This document shows positions 38,439-55,479 of a stretch of 64,000 bases of DNA, piece after piece (position 1 is the first letter of the stretch; every line of letters starts with the position of its first letter). The stretch spans positions 310,001-374,000 of the forward strand of contig CAIOAN010000012.1 in NCBI GenBank assembly GCA_903855995.1, read 5' to 3'. The notes under the pieces were generated by a model. The model searched no databases. It had not been told where the DNA came from and worked only from the letters and a program-made list of their open reading frames with translations. The stretch is from an uncultured Opitutia bacterium. GTDB taxonomy: Bacteria > Verrucomicrobiota > Verrucomicrobiia > Opitutales > UBA953. Position numbers and translations under genes: made by a program.

Positions 38439-39293
38439 ATGGCTCAATTTAAGCGCATAGCCGTCATCGGCGCCGGCCTCATCGGCGGTTCTGTCCTCCT
38501 GGCCGCCGCGCGGCGCGGGCTGGCGGGATCGCTGGCCTGTTGGTCTCGCTCCGAATCTTCCCGGGCGACCCTCCGCGCATTCAATGTCGCCGAAGTTTTT
38601 GAGAGCGCCGCCGAGTGCGTGAAGGAGGCCGATTTGGTCGTGGTAACGACCCCCGTAGATACAGCTGAAGCGACCTTCGCTGCGATTGCACCCGCCCTCT
38701 CGCCCGGCGCGGTCGTCACCGATGCGGGCAGCGTCAAAGTCGCCATCCTGCTCGCCGCCCGGCGCCTGCCCGCGGTAAACCCTTTCATCGGGGCTCACCC
38801 GATGGCCGGCGGAGAGAAAGCCGGAGCATCCCACGCCTCTGCCAGCCTCTTTGAGAAACGGGTATGCTTCATCACCCCGTCCGGACAAGACGACCCGCGA
38901 GCCCTGGACCGGGTCCGCACTTTCTGGAAAGAGCTTGGTTCGACGCTGACAGAAACCGATGCCGCCAAGCACGACGAGATCGTGGCCGCCATCAGCCACT
39001 TGCCGCACGCCGCCGCCGCCGCCCTGATGCTGGCCGTCATGGATCAACCTGGCTTCCGACTGGAGGCCTCCGGCCAAGGCCTGCGTGATGCGACCCGGAT
39101 TGCCGCCGGTGAAGAGAATCTCTGGGTGGGCATCCTGCTCGCTAACGCCCGCCACACGGCGGAAGGCTTGCGGGCCGTCGAACAGCGGGCGGCCCAGCTT
39201 CGTCAGGCCATCGAGTCACAAGACGCCGCGACCTTGCGCCAGCTCCTTGCCGAAGCCCGGATCGCCCGCCAATCCCTCGACCGGAACGCATGA
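38439..39293 (+). CDS. tyrA: Prephenate/arogenate dehydrogenase
   Basis: A 284-residue TyrA-type dehydrogenase for tyrosine synthesis. The NAD(P) loop is IAVIGAGLIGGS at residues 6-17, with VVTTPVD and IGAHPMAGGEKAG, and the catalytic His is in EIVAAISHLPH. There is no fused chorismate mutase domain. Start 38439 puts the nucleotide loop at the right distance; the frame is open further upstream without similarity. It overlaps aroA-cmk by 4 bases (ATGA). Confidence 0.93.
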   Translation: MAQFKRIAVIGAGLIGGSVLLAAARRGLAGSLACWSRSESSRATLRAFNVAEVFESAAECVKEADLVVVTTPVDTAEATFAAIAPALSPGAVVTDAGSVKVAILLAARRLPAVNPFIGAHPMAGGEKAGASHASASLFEKRVCFITPSGQDDPRALDRVRTFWKELGSTLTETDAAKHDEIVAAISHLPHAAAAALMLAVMDQPGFRLEASGQGLRDATRIAAGEENLWVGILLANARHTAEGLRAVEQRAAQLRQAIESQDAATLRQLLAEARIARQSLDRNA

Positions 39294-41326
39294 GCCCCAC
39301 TTTGGTCATCAGACCTTTTCAGACCCCGGCCCGCGGCGTCGCCCAAGTTCCCGGATCCAAGAGCATCACGAACCGTGCCCTGATCCTCGCCGCCTTAGCC
39401 GATGGACCGACGGTGCTGACCGGCGCGCTCTTTAGCCGCGACACGCGAATCCTCATCGCCGCACTCCAGGCTCTGGGCTTTGACGTGACCGCCGATGAGT
39501 CGACCCACGTAATCCGCTTGACCGGTCTGGCGGGAAAAATTCCGAACCGGCGCGCGAAACTTTTCGTCGGTAACGCCGGCACGGCCGCACGCTTCCTCAC
39601 CGCTTTCCTCGCCCTTTCGCCGGGGGGTTGCTTCGAACTCGACGGCGATGAGGCCATGCGGGCCCGCCCCATGAGCGGCCTGCTTGATGCCCTGACGGGC
39701 GCCGGCTGCCGCGCGACGAAGCCCGATGGATCTCCAGCGACACATTTCCCTTTTACCCTGCATACGTCGGGCAACCTCGGGGCTCTTACCGTCGACGCCT
39801 CCGCCTCTTCGCAACTGCTCTCCGCGCTCCTCATGGTGCTCCCCTTGAGCCCCGGCGCCTCCGTCACGATGAAAGGCACGACGGTGTCCGAACCTTTCGT
39901 CGAAATGACGGCCCGCATGTGCGGCCAATTTGGTCGCCCTCTCCGCCGCCAGGAAAACGGTGGCTGGGCTTGTGAGGAATCGGGCAGCTACATCTCCCAT
40001 CCCGCGGGCTACGCGATCGAGCCAGACGCCACGGCGGCGAGTTACTTCATCGCCTTGCCAGCCGTCACCGGCTTCGGCGCGTGCGTACGCATCGAAGGTT
40101 ACGCCCACGGCGGGCTACAGGGTGATACCGCCTTCGCCAAGGTTGCGGCGGCTTGCGGCGCGATCTTGCGGCCCGCCGCCGGCAACATGGTCGTGCAATC
40201 CTGGAAGAACGTCCAAGGCGGCGATTTCGATTTCAATGCCTTCTCTGATACGTTCCTGACGCTGGCCACACTGGCGACCCTCGCCGCGGGCCCAGTGCGG
40301 ATCAGTGGCATCGCCCACACCCGCAAACAGGAAACCGACCGAGTGCTCGCCATGGCGACCGAATTGGAGCGACTGGGGATTCGCGTAATACCTTCGGCCG
40401 CAGAACTGCGCGCGGATGATGCGCTTTCGGAACTGATGATTTTCCCCGACAAGGGCGCGCTCCGTAAAGCAGCGGCGAATGGCCCGGTCGCGATTCACAC
40501 CTATGAAGACCATCGCATGGCGATGAGCTTCGGCGTGCTGGGTTGTCTGGATCTCTTTGGAGACGGGCGTCCGTGGATCGCTATCGAAGACCCCGCCTGC
40601 ACGCATAAAACCTTCCCGCATTTCTTTACGGCCCTCGAAGCCCTGCGGACCAACTTCGTGCGAGTCTCCGTCGACGGTGGCGCTGCTTCTGGTAAATCTA
40701 GCACCAGCCGGCGTATCGCCCAAAACATGGGCCTGCTCCATGTCGACACCGGCGCCCATTATCGTAGCCTGACCCGGGCGCTGTTGGACATCGGTGCGTC
40801 GGCGGAGGATTCAGCTTCTATCGGGGCGGCCCTTAAAAAAATCCGCCTAGGTTCGCAGATTGTCGAGCGTGGCGGCGCGCGCAGCTCGGCGCTAACGCTG
40901 GGCGGTCAGCTTCCTTCGGATGAATCCCTGCGGACTCCCGAGGTGAACGCAGCGGTGTCCAAGATGGCCGCCCTCCCCGTCGTCCGCACCTTCCTCCTCG
41001 AGTATCAACGCAGCCAGGTGAAACTCGCCCAGGAAAGCGGCTTCACGGGTGTCGTAATGGAGGGGCGTGACATCGGCTCCGTCGTGCTGCCGGACGCCGA
41101 AGTCCGCATCTTCCTCGAAGCCGATGAAAGTGCCCGCGCCCTACGCCGAGCGGCCGAGGGCCAAGCGGACGCCGTGGCCCAGCGCGACTTGATGGATTCG
41201 ACGCGCAAGACTGCGCCGCTGGTGTGCCCCAAGGGCGCCCATCGCATCGACAACACCACGCTCACCTTAGAGCAAGTCGTGACGGAAATCTCCGGCCTGA
41301 TTCAAATCGCCGCCCTGCCCAGATGA
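39290..41326 (+). CDS. aroA-cmk: Bifunctional EPSP synthase / cytidylate kinase fusion
   Basis: A 678-residue fusion. Residues 1 to about 455 are AroA, the shikimate-pathway enzyme: PGSKSITNRALI, NAGTAARFLTAF, ARPMSGLLDAL, SSQLLSALL and YEDHRMAMSFG. From about residue 457 a cytidylate kinase begins with the P-loop DGGAASGKSS, then HVDTGAHYRSL, MEGRDIGSVVLPDAEV and QRDLMDSTR. Both halves look catalytically complete and no stop or frameshift lies between them; the linker is only a few residues. The genes are neighbours in many bacteria (aroA-cmk-rpsA), so fusion by loss of the intervening stop is plausible. It overlaps tyrA and plsC by 4 bases each. Confidence 0.95.
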   Translation: MSPTLVIRPFQTPARGVAQVPGSKSITNRALILAALADGPTVLTGALFSRDTRILIAALQALGFDVTADESTHVIRLTGLAGKIPNRRAKLFVGNAGTAARFLTAFLALSPGGCFELDGDEAMRARPMSGLLDALTGAGCRATKPDGSPATHFPFTLHTSGNLGALTVDASASSQLLSALLMVLPLSPGASVTMKGTTVSEPFVEMTARMCGQFGRPLRRQENGGWACEESGSYISHPAGYAIEPDATAASYFIALPAVTGFGACVRIEGYAHGGLQGDTAFAKVAAACGAILRPAAGNMVVQSWKNVQGGDFDFNAFSDTFLTLATLATLAAGPVRISGIAHTRKQETDRVLAMATELERLGIRVIPSAAELRADDALSELMIFPDKGALRKAAANGPVAIHTYEDHRMAMSFGVLGCLDLFGDGRPWIAIEDPACTHKTFPHFFTALEALRTNFVRVSVDGGAASGKSSTSRRIAQNMGLLHVDTGAHYRSLTRALLDIGASAEDSASIGAALKKIRLGSQIVERGGARSSALTLGGQLPSDESLRTPEVNAAVSKMAALPVVRTFLLEYQRSQVKLAQESGFTGVVMEGRDIGSVVLPDAEVRIFLEADESARALRRAAEGQADAVAQRDLMDSTRKTAPLVCPKGAHRIDNTTLTLEQVVTEISGLIQIAALPR

Positions 41327-41973: not shown

Positions 41974-43101
41974 TCAGGAAATCCGCTGCGGCATCACGAC
42001 GCAGAGGAAGTCATCCTTCAATCCACGGATGACGCCAGGGGACATGTCGTCCTTGAATTCGAAATCGATTTCGTCTTCCGTCAGCGCCTTCAGCGGGTCG
42101 ATGATATACTGCGGGTTGAAGGCGATGTTCACTTCTGGGCCGTCGTACTTAATCGCAATGGGCTCATGGGCGTCGCCACTGTCAGACTTCGCAGAAATTT
42201 CGAGATTCTGGGTCTTCTTGGAAACGCTCAGGCGGATCGTGTTGTTGCGGTCATCCGTCATTAACGCGGCGCGATTGACGCTTTCCAAAATCTTCTCGCG
42301 CTCGAGACGCACCTTGGAGCCGGCTTCCTTCGGAATGACCTGGCGGTAGTTAGGATAGTTGCCTTCCACGACCTTGGAGACGAGCTGGATGCGGTCTACG
42401 AGGCCTTCCTCGTTCTTCGGGATATCGATGGTGAAGCCGACCTGACGTTCGTTGTGGGAGACGTGAGCGACGCCACCGGCCTTAAGGAGGCGCATCAGTT
42501 CGATGATGGTTCGGGCTGGAAGAATCAGCGCAAGGGTCTTGTCTGCGCCTTCGATCTTGCGCTCGCACTTCGCGAGGCGTCGACCATCGGTTGCTACCAC
42601 GGTGAGTTTACCTTCGGCGAATTCAAAGAAGACCCCGTTGAGGATGTAACGGTTTTCATCGGACGACTGTGCGTAGCTCACTTTGCGGAGCATATCACCG
42701 AGGTCATCTTGGTTGATTGAGATCGTCGGCTGTCCGGCGAAATTGGAAATGGGGGGGAATTGATCGGCGGGGAGCCCAGCGATTTGGAAAACGGAACTAC
42801 CGGAAGTGATTTTAACGCGATCCTTGCCGGTGAGTTCGACGATCGTGTCGCTGCTCGAAAGGGCGCGAACAATCGGAACGAGTTTTTTCACCGGCAACGT
42901 GATGCGACCTGGTGAAGTCACGGTCGCTTTGATTCGGCAACAGATGCCGAGATCCAGGTTTGTTGTGGTAAGTGTTACCGTATCGCCTTCGGCTTCGATC
43001 AGCACGTTCTGCAGAATCGGCATCGTGGCACGGTTGCCGACGACGTTGGTGACGCTGGAAAGTCCGTTGAAGAAATGATTTCGGTTAACCTTGAACTTCA
43101 T
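41974..43101 (-). CDS. dnaN: DNA polymerase III sliding clamp (beta subunit)
   Basis: A 375-residue beta clamp. It begins MKFKVNRNHFFNGLSSV and follows the family through three repeated domains, ending with IRGLKDDFLCVVMPQRIS, where the terminal VVMPQRI-type segment is conserved (E. coli MPMRL). Start 43101 is preferred to an upstream in-frame start. No dnaA or recF adjoins it here; instead a 250-base gap with DnaA-box-like sites lies upstream. Confidence 0.96.
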   Translation of the reverse strand: MKFKVNRNHFFNGLSSVTNVVGNRATMPILQNVLIEAEGDTVTLTTTNLDLGICCRIKATVTSPGRITLPVKKLVPIVRALSSSDTIVELTGKDRVKITSGSSVFQIAGLPADQFPPISNFAGQPTISINQDDLGDMLRKVSYAQSSDENRYILNGVFFEFAEGKLTVVATDGRRLAKCERKIEGADKTLALILPARTIIELMRLLKAGGVAHVSHNERQVGFTIDIPKNEEGLVDRIQLVSKVVEGNYPNYRQVIPKEAGSKVRLEREKILESVNRAALMTDDRNNTIRLSVSKKTQNLEISAKSDSGDAHEPIAIKYDGPEVNIAFNPQYIIDPLKALTEDEIDFEFKDDMSPGVIRGLKDDFLCVVMPQRIS

Positions 43102-43351
43102 GATGTCCAAAGGATTGAGGGGTCGAGGGGGTCGAGGCAACCACGCAATACCCACATCCGGCCTGAACCTGTTCTTAATTTATCTTCATTTATAAATACC
43201 AGTAGCATCAGTAGGTCTCGGAATTCCGTGGATAGTTTCACAAGACGCTGGATGGAGGGGTAGATGTGCAAACCAAACTCCTGTGCCCAAGGGGTGAACA
43301 ACTCCGACCTTGTTCACATTACCAGTGTCACACGAAATCCTCACGGTCTAT
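43102..43351. other. Intergenic region with a DnaA-box-like cluster and AT-rich stretch (candidate oriC)
   Basis: The gap between dnaN and pssA. DnaA-box-like 9-mers, consensus TTWTNCACA: TTGTTCACA at 43310-43318 (+), TTGTTCACC at 43293-43301 (-), GTTTGCACA at 43265-43273 (-), CTATCCACG at 43227-43235 (-), and CTATTCACA at 43348-43356 (+) just inside pssA. An AT-rich stretch (about 43172-43199) lies next to dnaN. The region also must hold the dnaN promoter. Origin function is inferred. Confidence 0.45.
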
Positions 43352-44224
43352 TCACACTCCGGACACCGGCTCATCGTCATCCTCAGGAGCGGGGTCCATC
43401 TCGCTTTTTTTGAGGAGGAAAACATGCCTGAAAATACTCCACCCGATATATCCCAGAAACAGCGCTGGGAACGAATACTCGGGGAACTTAAATACTAATG
43501 CGCCGGTGATGATGATCAGGATGAAGACGCGTGTGCGGGCCCGGGCGGTCCAATCTAGCTTTTTGAAACTAGGGAAACGGACATTGCTGATCATCAGGAA
43601 GGAGATGATCAGCATCAAGGGGAGGAGGCTCCATGACCAGGCCTGCACGGTCTGGTGGTCGGCCATGACCTTGGAGAGCACTAAGACGAGGGAGGCTATC
43701 ATTCCCGCTGCCGCAGGGGACGGCAGGCCCACAAAATCCCCGCCGGCCGCACGCTTTTCATTCCCCGGTACCAATGGATTGGTCAGGACGTTAAAACGCG
43801 CCAGCCGCACGCCGGCACAGAGTAAATAGATGAAAGCCAGCAGCCAGGTGACCAGCTGGACGTTGTCGGTGGCTTCGGGTTTAATAACCAAGAAACAGGC
43901 CATGAGGGCCGGAGCCACGCCAAAGGAGACCGTGTCTGCGATGGAGTCGAATTCCGCTCCGAATAGGGATTCCCGATGGGTGGCCCGGGCGACCCGGCCG
44001 TCAAACAAATCGCAGACGCAGGCGAATAAGATGAACCAAACCGCGGTGATATAATGATCAGCGCGGGCGGCGGCTTCGATGTTCAGGAAGCGTGCCTCAA
44101 TGCAGTTCTTCATGGCCAGAAAACCGCAGAGCATGTTCCCAGCCGTGAAAAGGTTGGGCAGAAGGTAGATGCGCGCGGCCTCCTCGGGGGAAGAATAAGC
44201 ACGTTTTTCTTGAGGATTTGGCAC
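43352..44224 (-). CDS. pssA: CDP-diacylglycerol--serine O-phosphatidyltransferase
   Basis: A 290-residue integral-membrane CDP-alcohol phosphotransferase. The signature D-G-x2-A-R-x8-G-x3-D-x3-D is exact (DGRVAR to FDSIAD), preceded by LLPNLFTAGNMLCGFLA. The size and the GLPSPAAAGMIAS segment indicate phosphatidylserine synthase (PssA, type II). No ATG fits between the upstream gene and the first helix; a GTG at 44224 is the most reasonable start, without a convincing ribosome-binding site. A longer frame overlaps the RelE-fold gene. Confidence 0.88.
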   Translation of the reverse strand: MPNPQEKRAYSSPEEAARIYLLPNLFTAGNMLCGFLAMKNCIEARFLNIEAAARADHYITAVWFILFACVCDLFDGRVARATHRESLFGAEFDSIADTVSFGVAPALMACFLVIKPEATDNVQLVTWLLAFIYLLCAGVRLARFNVLTNPLVPGNEKRAAGGDFVGLPSPAAAGMIASLVLVLSKVMADHQTVQAWSWSLLPLMLIISFLMISNVRFPSFKKLDWTARARTRVFILIIITGALVFKFPEYSFPALFLGYIGWSIFRHVFLLKKSEMDPAPEDDDEPVSGV

Positions 44225-44228
44225 TTTT

Positions 44229-44582
44229 TTAGGATTTAGGGTCGTCGAGGTATTTCCAGAAACCGCCCTCTTGTTCGATGCGGGCTTCGTCTTCCGGGAA
44301 AGGCAGGTGGGAGCGGAAAGCGAAATCGGCATAGGTGTGGCGGTGGAGCACATAGTTAGCCATCAGCGAGCCTTCGGTGGCCTCGAAATAAATACGGAAT
44401 TCGCCCACGCGCAGGCGGTGATAGACGTGCCCGCCGCGCCGCACGGTGCCTAGTTCGGAACTGCCGCGCAAAAGGTCTTCCGGGGTCAGCGAGGAGAACG
44501 CCTCGACGACTTCCATCTGCTCGAGTGTCGGCAGCTTGGCCAGCTCACGCATCGCCTGGTCGCTGAAGTTCACTTGATACAT
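44229..44582 (-). CDS. RelE/ParE-fold small protein, no partner antitoxin
   Basis: A 117-residue protein resembling the RelE/ParE toxin fold: MYQVNFSDQAMRELAKLP at the N terminus and HRLRVGEFRIYFEATEG with the basic residues typical of the core sheet. The C-terminal 40 residues are an extra acidic/aromatic tail. Classical toxins have a small antitoxin gene next to them; none is seen, since pssA begins 4 bases downstream and the upstream gene is a phosphatase 42 bases away. It may be a domesticated regulatory or RNA-binding protein. Confidence 0.65.
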   Translation of the reverse strand: MYQVNFSDQAMRELAKLPTLEQMEVVEAFSSLTPEDLLRGSSELGTVRRGGHVYHRLRVGEFRIYFEATEGSLMANYVLHRHTYADFAFRSHLPFPEDEARIEQEGGFWKYLDDPKS

Positions 44583-52050: not shown

Positions 52051-52076
52051 GGCGCTGTTCCACGTGGAACAGCGCC
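52051..52076. other. parS-like centromere site within a 26-base perfect palindrome
   Basis: The core TGTTCCACGTGGAACA (52056-52071) differs from the classical parS TGTTTCACGTGAAACA only by a symmetric pair of changes, a form known from Pseudomonas. The symmetry extends a further 5 bases on each side (GGCGC/GCGCC). It sits just after mnmG. Confidence 0.75.
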
Positions 52077-52100: not shown

Positions 52101-53981
52101 TTATTTTGCCCTAAAAAGGACCATCAACAATGACACATCCGCCGGATTAACCCCGCTGATCCGACTGGCTTGGCCTAGAGTCTTGGGCTGAATCGACTGA
52201 AGCTTTTGGCGAGCTTCGATGCGTAAGCCATAGGCTTTTAAGAAATCAAAACCTTCAGGCACTTTAAAGGAGTCCAAATCGTGCAGCTTACGGGCGTTCC
52301 GGGTTTCGCGCTCTAAGTACCCTCGGTATTTCACCCGATACATGACTTCAGCCTGAACCTCAGGGGCTTCAGCTAGGAATGTGGGCGGCAGGTCTTTAGG
52401 GGTGGATTCCCAGTTTCGACGGATTACATCGCCCGCAATCCCCCCAGGAATGGCTAATTTTTCTAAATACTCGATCCAATGGGCGACTTTTTCCGCCTTA
52501 GCCTCAATCCGCACCAAGCGTTCTTTAGGCACGAGCCCGAATTCGCTTATTTTATCCTTAAGCCGGATTTCAGCACTTCCATGATTGAATAAGAGGCGGA
52601 ATTCGGCGCGACTGGTAAACATCCGGTAAGGCTCCTGAGTGCCTTTAGTGACTAAATCATCAATTAAGACGCCAATATAGGCTTCGTCCCGGCCGATTAC
52701 CATCGGGGTTTGGCCTTTGACCTTACAGGAGGCATTGACCCCAGCGACCAGGCCTTGGGCAGCGGCTTCCTCATATCCAGAGGTCCCGTTAATCTGCCCG
52801 GCAAAGAAGAGACCTTCCACCTTTTTGGACTCCAAGGTGGGGTAGAGTTGGGTAGGGGGCGCAAAATCATACTCCACGGCATAGGCAGGGCGGAGCATCA
52901 CGGCTTTTTCCAGACCGGGGATCGAGGCCAACATCTCTAACTGGACGGCAAAGGGCAGGGAGGTCGAAAGGCCATTGATATACCATTCATCCGTATTCCG
53001 CCCCTCGGGCTCGAGATAGAGCTTATGGGTATCCTTATCGGAGAACTTCACGAACTTATCTTCAATCGATGGGCAGTAACGCGGTCCTACGCCGGTTATC
53101 TCACCGCCATAGAGAGGGGACAGGTGGAGGTTCTCCTGCACGATCTTACCCGTGGCGCAGGTGGCTTCCGTCATCCAGCACGAGACCTGGTCACTTCCCG
53201 GAGCCCAGCCGGGGAGCCGTTCGCCCGCTTGTTCCACGTGGAACAAATCGGTTACTTGGCGCGTATCATGGAACGCAAAAAGGGTAGGGGATACATCCCC
53301 TGGCTGTTCCTCGCACTTACTGAAATCAATGGAGGATCCGAGGATACGCGGAGGGGTACCTGTCTTGAGTCTTTGAAGTTCTATTCCAGACTCTAAGAAA
53401 CTGGCTGACAAAGACTTAGCACTAAAATCACCTAGCCGTCCTCCTTCCGTTTTATTAGCCCCTATGTGCATCAGGCCGCGTAAGAATGTTCCCGTGGTAA
53501 CCACCACGGTTTTACCGTGGAAGGCGAGGTCCAGATTCGTCTGAACCCCGACGACGGCGCTCCCCTTAAAAATAAGCCCAGTGACCTGAGCTTGGAAGAT
53601 AGTCAGCCCGGGTTGCAGCTCACAAAGATGCTTCATCCGGAATTGGTAGGCTTTCTTGTCGCACTGGGCCCGGGGGGCCTGGACGGCCGGGCCCTTGGAA
53701 GAGTTCAGCAGCCGAAACTGGATGCCGGTCACGTCGGCGGTCATGCCCATCTCTCCCCCCAGGGCATCGATCTCGCGGACGATGTGGCCCTTGGCCTGGC
53801 CCCCGATGGCGGGGTTACAGCTCATCTGGGCGATGGTGTCGACGTTCCCCGTCAGGAGCAGAACATCGACCCCCATGCGGGCGGCGGCCAGGGCGGCTTC
53901 CACGCCGGCATGGCCAGCCCCGCAGACGATGACGTCGTAGGGGCGGTCGGGCCCGAGGCGGATTTGTTTGTGAGGTCGCAT
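52101..53981 (-). CDS. mnmG: tRNA uridine 5-carboxymethylaminomethyl modification enzyme MnmG (GidA)
   Basis: A 626-residue FAD enzyme that works with MnmE on the wobble uridine of certain tRNAs. The FAD loop [21 protein letters not shown] and [20 protein letters not shown] are diagnostic; [19 protein letters not shown] is the second nucleotide-binding signature. A strong GAGGGAG ribosome-binding site supports start 53981, although a GTG at 54008 overlaps the mnmE stop. The first 1.4 kb of the interval is visibly less GC-rich than its surroundings. A second parS-like palindrome lies inside the coding sequence. Confidence 0.96.
53229..53246. other. parS-like site inside mnmG
   Basis: TTGTTCCACGTGGAACAA is an 18-base perfect palindrome containing the same 16-base core as the site at 52056-52071. 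In mnmG it encodes LFHVEQ. Confidence 0.75.
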
Positions 53982-54004
53982 AGGCGCTCCCTCACCGGAG
54001 GGAA

Positions 54005-55363
54005 TCACTTACCTATGCAGAAGGAAGCAAAGAGCTTGTCCAGCATACGCTCATTATCAATGCGGCCGACAATCTCCCCCAGGGCGTCCAGGGCGACCCG
54101 GCCCTGGGCAGCGGCGAGTTCCGTCTGAATCGGAGCCTTAAGGTGATTGGCGGCCTCCGAAAGGGCGGTCGCGGCCCGGGCGAGGGCTTCGGCATGGCGC
54201 ACACTAACCACGAGGTCCTCGGCGCCCGGGGCGATCTCCTTGGCCACGAGGAAGTCGCCGAGTTTCGCGCGAAGTGCTTCGGCGTCGCGGCCGTCCAGCA
54301 GGCAGGCAGAAAGTTTCGTCAGCTCTGGCTGGAAATTTTTCTGCGCGGGATGCGCAGGCAAGTCGGACTTGTTGGCGATGATCAGCGAGCGCGCGGGATC
54401 GAGCAGGGCGATGAGTTCCGCGGGCAGGGCAGGGGGCTCGGCCGAAGCGTCGACGACGAGCAACCGCAGGTGCGCGCCGCGCGCCTGTTCCAGTGCGCGG
54501 GCCATGCCGAGATTCTCTAGCGCCGAACCGCCGGTGCGCAAACCGGCGGTGTCGATCGCCGTGACCGCGAGCGGCAGTCCTGCGACGGGGGCCTCCAAGT
54601 AGTCGCGCGTCGTGCCCGCCTCCGGGCTGACGATGGCCCGATCGGCGCCGGCAAGAACGTTGAGCAGGCTGGATTTCCCGGCGTTGGGTGCGCCGACCAC
54701 GGCGACGCGCAGGCCGGTGCGCAGGGTGCCGTCGTGCCGGGCGGTCTTGGCGTATCCAGAAAGTTCCGACACCATTTCATGTAAGCGGGCCGCGGGGCCG
54801 CTGGGGTCTTCGGGCGGCAGGTCTTCTTCAGGGAAATCGATGTGTGCCTCGAGTTCGGCGAGGATCTGCAGTGTGCGTTCCGTCCAGCCGGCGACTTGGC
54901 GGCCGAGTTCGCCGGCGAGCATGCGGCGGGCGGAGGCGAGCGCCCGCTCGGAGCTGGCGTGAATCAGGTCGGCGACGGCTTCCGCCTGGGTGAGGTCGAT
55001 TCGACCGGCGAGATAGGAGCGGCGCGTGAACTCGCCGGGTTCGGCGAGACGGCATCCGCGCGCGAGACAGTCTTCGGTGATCCGGCGCACGAGCAGCGGA
55101 TTGCCATGACACGTGACTTCGAGCGAATCATTGCCGGTGAAGGAACGGCCGGCGTGCCAGAGCACGGCGACCACCTGATCAACGGCTTCACCTTCGCGGT
55201 TTCGCCAGATGGCGAGCGTCGATTGTTTTTCGATCAGCGGGGTGCGACGGCTGAAGGCCTCCTGGGCGATTTGTGCGGCCAACGGGCCGTCGACCCGGAC
55301 GACCGCCAGGGCCGAGCGGCCGGCGGGTGTCGCAGCGGCGACGATGGTCTCGGAGGCAGGCAT
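54005..55363 (-). CDS. mnmE: tRNA modification GTPase MnmE (TrmE)
   Basis: A 452-residue GTPase, partner of MnmG. It begins [21 protein letters not shown], like E. coli MnmE, and carries [19 protein letters not shown] in the folate-binding region. The G domain has [18 protein letters not shown] and NKSDL, and the C-terminal FCIGK includes the catalytic Cys. Start 55363 chosen to match the family; earlier in-frame starts exist. Confidence 0.96.
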
Positions 55364-55479
55364 GAATCGGTGAAACGTCATCCCAAGGGGCGAGGGGAGG
55401 GGAGGCAAGCGGTGTCATACATCCGCAAAAAGGCTGGAAGGGAAGGGCGGGCCTGCCACAGTCCGCCGGAGACACCACC

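Follow-up and report, generated by a model that had tools for sequence, protein, structure and literature searches.

Genes and sequence elements around dnaN

The DNA stretch under study, hereafter the window, comprises 64,000 nucleotides (G000:C12:310001-374000) of an assembly of 2.66 Mb in 13 contigs. On its minus strand, it contains the sliding clamp gene dnaN (41974-43101, start at 43101; Pfam PF00712, PF02767 and PF02768) and a pssA-like gene for a CDP-alcohol phosphatidyltransferase (PF01066). The latter was listed as an ORF at 43352-44353, also on the minus strand, with its stop at 43352; the true start may be internal to this ORF. The DnaN protein shares 99% identity with that of a metagenome-assembled genome (MAG) of an uncultured Opitutae bacterium, and the close DnaN relatives are mostly MAGs labelled Opitutae, Opitutales or Verrucomicrobia, in which lake names are frequent. 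The translation of another ORF of the window (39290-41326), judged by eye, looks like EPSP synthase fused to cytidylate kinase.

Between pssA and dnaN there is a gap of 250 bases (43102-43351; 353,102-353,351 on contig C12), which had been proposed in a preliminary description as a candidate replication origin. Neither Rfam families nor promoter patterns, including sigma-70-like ones, nor terminator patterns were matched in the pssA-dnaN gap. The sequence contains an AT-rich stretch (about 43165-43200), probably the unwinding region, which adjoins DnaA boxes as expected of a DnaA-dependent oriC and as the preliminary description had stated. The two parS-like sites and the genes mnmEG described in the neighborhood were also found. 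Both parS sites read TGTTCCACGTGGAACA; one (52056-52071) is located just 3' of mnmG, the other (53230-53245) inside this gene, 9-10 kb from the gap. At up to two mismatches they are the only ones in the whole genome, while a reversed control pattern gave no match. Pfam identified mnmG at 52101-54008 and mnmE at 54005-55408. The sole ParB_N match of the genome is located at C10:79655, on a contig other than that of the parS sites. SSU rRNA gave zero matches in the whole assembly, which thus seems to lack its rRNA operon(s) and offers no strand-orientation marker from rRNA.

DnaA boxes and the box-trio module

The five DnaA-box-like 9-mers reported within 130 bases were recovered at 43227-43356. 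Box A (CTATTCACA, 43348-43356, plus strand) overlaps the pssA stop codon and box B (TTGTTCACA, 43310-43318) lies on the same strand; box C (TTGTTCACC, 43293-43301), a weak box-like 9-mer (GTTTGCACA, 43265-43273) and box E (CTATCCACG, 43227-43235) are on the minus strand. A perfect canonical box (TTATCCACA) is absent from the pssA-dnaN gap, all five sites being imperfect. Box density was ranked over contigs C12 and C8, which together make up 935,438 bp or roughly 35% of the genome. With up to two mismatches to TTATCCACA, the gap is the best 250-bp window, containing six sites compared to four in the next best one, and with up to one mismatch to TTRTNCACA it has four sites against three in the next 250-bp window. 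In 130-bp windows, by contrast, the canonical motifs alone gave three sites, a weak excess tied with other places. The objection that boxes might be equally dense elsewhere, raised beforehand as a point against an origin, thus fails for 250-bp windows, where density is lower in the remainder of both contigs; in 130-bp windows, the canonical motifs alone leave a tie. Because of this tie, one genome alone provides weak evidence.

The gaps of 54 relatives were aligned with the focal gap (55 rows). Three of 57 loci were dropped from the trio analysis, two with too little upstream sequence and one in which no start was found; the relatives' loci are not independent samples. Boxes A, B, C and E reached 1.72, 1.79, 1.52 and 1.33 bits per column, respectively, compared to 0.80 for the remaining gap, while the weak 9-mer is unconserved. 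Box B is identical in 40 of the 55 rows, in which it reads TGTGAACAA in the dnaN sense, and box C is replaced by TTATTCACC or TTATTCGCA in many relatives. Position and sequence of the boxes are kept down to approximately 80% DnaN identity. Density was ranked in 47 of the 57 loci, each of at least 8 kb and with enough upstream sequence: the dnaN gap was strictly the densest box window in 41, tied in five and lower in one. On the other hand, the gaps of two near-complete relatives, G040 and G055, possess boxes, but other windows of the segment read are denser.

The preliminary description overlooked the core of a box-trio module of the basal unwinding system (BUS) type, which consists of box E, a spacer and DnaA-trios. 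According to PMC8287927, the BUS rule of Pelliciari et al. (2021) calls for a box with up to two mismatches, a spacer of 0-16 bases and at least three NAN trios; the published spacer length peaks at 10-13, and GAT is both the commonest trio and the one nearest the box. From the same text, we take the trios to lie on the strand with its 5' end directed away from the box. In the gap, box E is followed by a spacer of 12 bases (GAATTCCGAGAC in the dnaN sense; 43215-43226, minus strand) and eight triplets (43191-43214, plus strand; dnaN-sense CTACTGATGCTACTGGTATTTATA). Read in the dnaN sense, the order is CTATCCACG, GAATTCCGAGAC, CTA CTG ATG CTA CTG GTA TTT ATA and then AT-rich DNA, which overlaps the trios; the plus-strand trios are therefore 3'-GAT GAC TAC GAT GAC CAT AAA TAT-5', with GAT first. 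The run of eight is the longest beside any of the 1,224 boxes with up to two mismatches on C12 and C8, the next longest being six, found at three boxes. A second BUS-like match with six trios (C12:169443) was set aside, as it lies inside a called gene.

At least three trios adjoin box E in 39 of the 55 rows, with a spacer of 12 in all but one of them (38/39), and eight trios are present in 21 rows; at random positions, the corresponding frequencies are 11.9% for three or more and 0.1% for eight. The 16 rows without three contiguous trios where expected count against the BUS reading; most of them have an interrupted run, such as CTTACGGTTACTACTG. Inspection by eye of the sequence immediately upstream of dnaN in other Opitutales families (loci L111-L130) showed in many of them a box TTRTTCACA and, only a few bases further on, ATAAGAA or ATAATAAGA; this trinucleotide tract looks unlike that of the focal genus.

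Strand asymmetry, parS linkage and the position of dnaA

The raw cumulative GC skew of C12 has its minimum at about 240 kb and none at the gap. Raw skew was rejected as an origin locator for this contig, since gene orientation dominates the signal. Skews were instead calculated from third codon positions of genes predicted by a codon-model caller, with the coding-strand component removed. The corrected GC3 minimum of C12 is situated at 351,593, approximately 1.6 kb from the gap, and none of 2,000 gene permutations was equally deep. A distant skew minimum had been named in advance as an argument against the origin: this is what the raw skew gives, while after strand correction the minimum (351.6 kb) lies beside the gap (353.1-353.35 kb). 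The bootstrap of this minimum is broad, though (5-95% range 301-373 kb, 66% within 15 kb). The corrected AT3 maximum of C12 was found at 340.9 kb (bootstrap 5-95% range 338.2-358.2 kb).

Two relatives are represented by near-complete chromosomes on single contigs, G040 (2.63 Mb) and G055 (3.75 Mb). The sampled raw skew of G040 is negative at 2.21 Mb and has become positive by 2.34 Mb; its corrected GC3 minimum (2,292,711) falls within dnaN (2,292,151-2,293,275); AT3 was uninformative in this genome. In G055, the raw skew flips at 0.88-1.0 Mb, an interval that includes dnaN (0.905 Mb; 904,712-905,848). The corrected GC3 minimum is at 898,031 with a broad bootstrap (61% within 15 kb), and the corrected AT3 maximum at 905.3 kb almost coincides with the gap at 905.9 kb.

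Within the genus, G034 and G019 are colinear with C12 around dnaN, but GC3 is reversed there (G034:C1 and G019:C7, loci L191-L198 and L207-L210), the difference between leading and lagging strand amounting to -0.069 (p=0.0013) in G034 and -0.095 (p=0.0004) in G019. The GC3 difference of G016 was not significant. AT3 polarity, by contrast, agrees in all four genus genomes examined (leading minus lagging -0.18 to -0.48), and the corrected AT3 maxima lie at 70.5 kb in G034, 89.9 kb in G016 and 60.8 kb in G019, compared to gap positions of 73.4, 84.2 and 62.05 kb. The leading strand of G034 and G019 hence appears to be C-rich and T-rich. Within 80 kb of the gap, 70% of the coding bases are co-oriented with forks leaving it, and 58-70% in four genomes of the genus; in G055 the share is merely 33% for forks leaving dnaN, which counts against the origin. 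Among the matches listed, ten congeners with both elements on one contig showed a parS-dnaN distance of approximately 9-12 kb. Since gene orientation and parS linkage are constant, we interpret this as a change of the GC bias within the genus rather than a displacement of the origin. An exact parS shares a contig with dnaN in at least seven of 20 order-level genomes among the matches listed (G038, G039, G040, G046, G049, G052 and G055), separated by about 5.5 to 74 kb; in the remaining ones, parS and dnaN are located on separate contigs, or these matches do not include an exact parS.

The dnaA gene is located on C8 and dnaN on C12, so that the dnaA-adjacent arrangement of the B. subtilis type is not found. 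In the near-complete relatives, the two genes are about 1.0 Mb (G040) and about 0.25 Mb (G055) apart. On C8, the corrected skews of both GC3 and AT3 keep the same direction across dnaA for approximately 400 kb, without a turn. Upstream of the gene, there are three box-like sites (TTWTNCACA, up to one mismatch, from C8:276771), which are probably autoregulatory. At about 20-50 kb of C8, positive values of the corrected GC3 skew give way to negative ones, a terminus-like signature.

The DnaA protein carries the N-terminal, AAA+ and helix-turn-helix domains, and its best PDB relative is 8btg_A. The isoleucine that binds single-stranded DNA and the arginine finger are conserved; in the alignment with 8btg_A, they match I190 and R264 of B. 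subtilis (numbering as in PMC8287927). The box-reading motif is GGRDHGTV, compared to GGRDHTTV in B. subtilis, i.e. the first threonine is replaced by glycine. Searches of the dnaA loci (L001, L078-L107) detected GGRDHGTV in 18 of 18 order-level and nine of 12 congener loci; in the other three, the search pattern matched the wrong frame or nothing. We take this Gly/Thr position to be one that touches the DnaA box; a literature search on DnaA base-contact residues found nothing. The oriC boxes are degenerate (TTRTTCACN, YTRTNCACG), and the motif may accompany them. It is conceivable, if rather less than probable, that the DnaA code is shifted at the origins of Opitutales, with GGRDHGTV matched to the degenerate boxes. 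On this reading, the leading strand would also have turned C-rich in part of one genus and remained T-rich, and GC skew alone would lead to a terminus call there.

Function of the gap and comparison with known origins

Box density, conservation, the BUS module, skew turning points, gene orientation and parS linkage agree independently of each other and support the proposal of an origin upstream of dnaN. On these sequence data, it is highly likely that the pssA-dnaN gap is the chromosomal origin oriC, and it very probably works as a BUS-type DnaA origin. For initiation at the gap, we infer a series of DnaA binding, unwinding, helicase loading and ParB binding. DnaA produced from the distant gene would occupy boxes A, B and C towards pssA as well as the more central box E, from which it would extend across the 12-base spacer onto the 3'-NAN-5' trios of the plus strand, from 43214 down to 43191. 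The filament on the trios would then stretch and open the neighboring AT-rich DNA towards dnaN, providing the site of helicase loading, and ParB bound to both parS sites, at a distance of 9-10 kb, would subsequently segregate the new origins.

DnaA boxes in front of a replication gene may serve in its regulation. The cluster could accordingly represent a DnaA-controlled promoter region of dnaN, and the true origin could be another site close by, such as the parS/mnmG locus at a distance of 9-10 kb. The position of parS off the gap would fit this explanation, as would the skew turning point, which in this genome is resolved no finer than about 10-50 kb. It is nevertheless unlikely, since the gap's BUS module ranks first in 935 kb, the mnmG/parS stretch does not appear among the densest box windows listed, the corrected minimum of G040 falls on dnaN itself and the search of the gap for promoter patterns gave no sigma-70-like match.

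An origin beside dnaA, as in many bacteria, which would make the dnaN boxes secondary, is suggested by the three box-like sites upstream of dnaA. Against such a location stand the corrected GC3 and AT3 skews, which do not turn at dnaA on C8, the distance of about 1 Mb between dnaA and the skew minimum in G040, and the lack of either parS site on C8; we consider it very improbable. Equally little speaks for degenerate 9-mers having accumulated by chance in this non-coding DNA: while the imperfection of all five sites and the tied 130-bp density could be explained in this way, the conserved position and sequence of the boxes contradict it, and so do the 41 of 47 loci in which the gap is strictly densest. 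The oriC at the pssA-dnaN gap thus remains the preferred reading.

A literature search yielded no published origin specific for this group; the supplements of PMC8287927, which contain predicted origins, were outside this search. The gap provides an anatomically defined candidate origin for an uncultured freshwater genus of Opitutales, an order in which dnaA gives no clue. The origin position is needed for coverage-based growth-rate estimates and for vector building. Raw GC skew is a practical trap in this respect, as it misses this origin and has the opposite sign in sister species. By contrast, the gene-strand-corrected AT3 skew recovers the origin in the four genus genomes examined.

In the oriC of Escherichia coli, a box cluster lies beside an AT-rich unwinding region and mnmG (gidA) is not far away. 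The gap resembles this arrangement in all three respects, but it contains no canonical boxes and the origin is located at dnaN rather than at mnmG. Moreover, PMC6669920 uses E. coli to illustrate origins that lack the box-trio arrangement. BUS modules, on the other hand, have been predicted in 1,755 of 2,070 bacterial oriCs, an example being incC of Bacillus subtilis (PMC8287927). What separates the gap from these origins is the degenerate box on the trio side (CTATCCACG, or CTGTACACG in many congeners), the interrupted trio run of some congeners and the lack of an adjacent dnaA. What they have in common is the order of the elements, i.e. a box, a spacer (12 bases, within the published peak of 10-13), at least three trios with a central A, a box-proximal GAT and AT-rich DNA beyond, and, as in incC, a module pointing towards dnaN. 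The B. subtilis module presumably also lies beside dnaN. Origins linked to dnaN with an unlinked dnaA are known as well, e.g. from Synechococcus. The arrangement at the gap resembles that of this member of a different phylum, in that both have oriC beside dnaN and dnaA far away.
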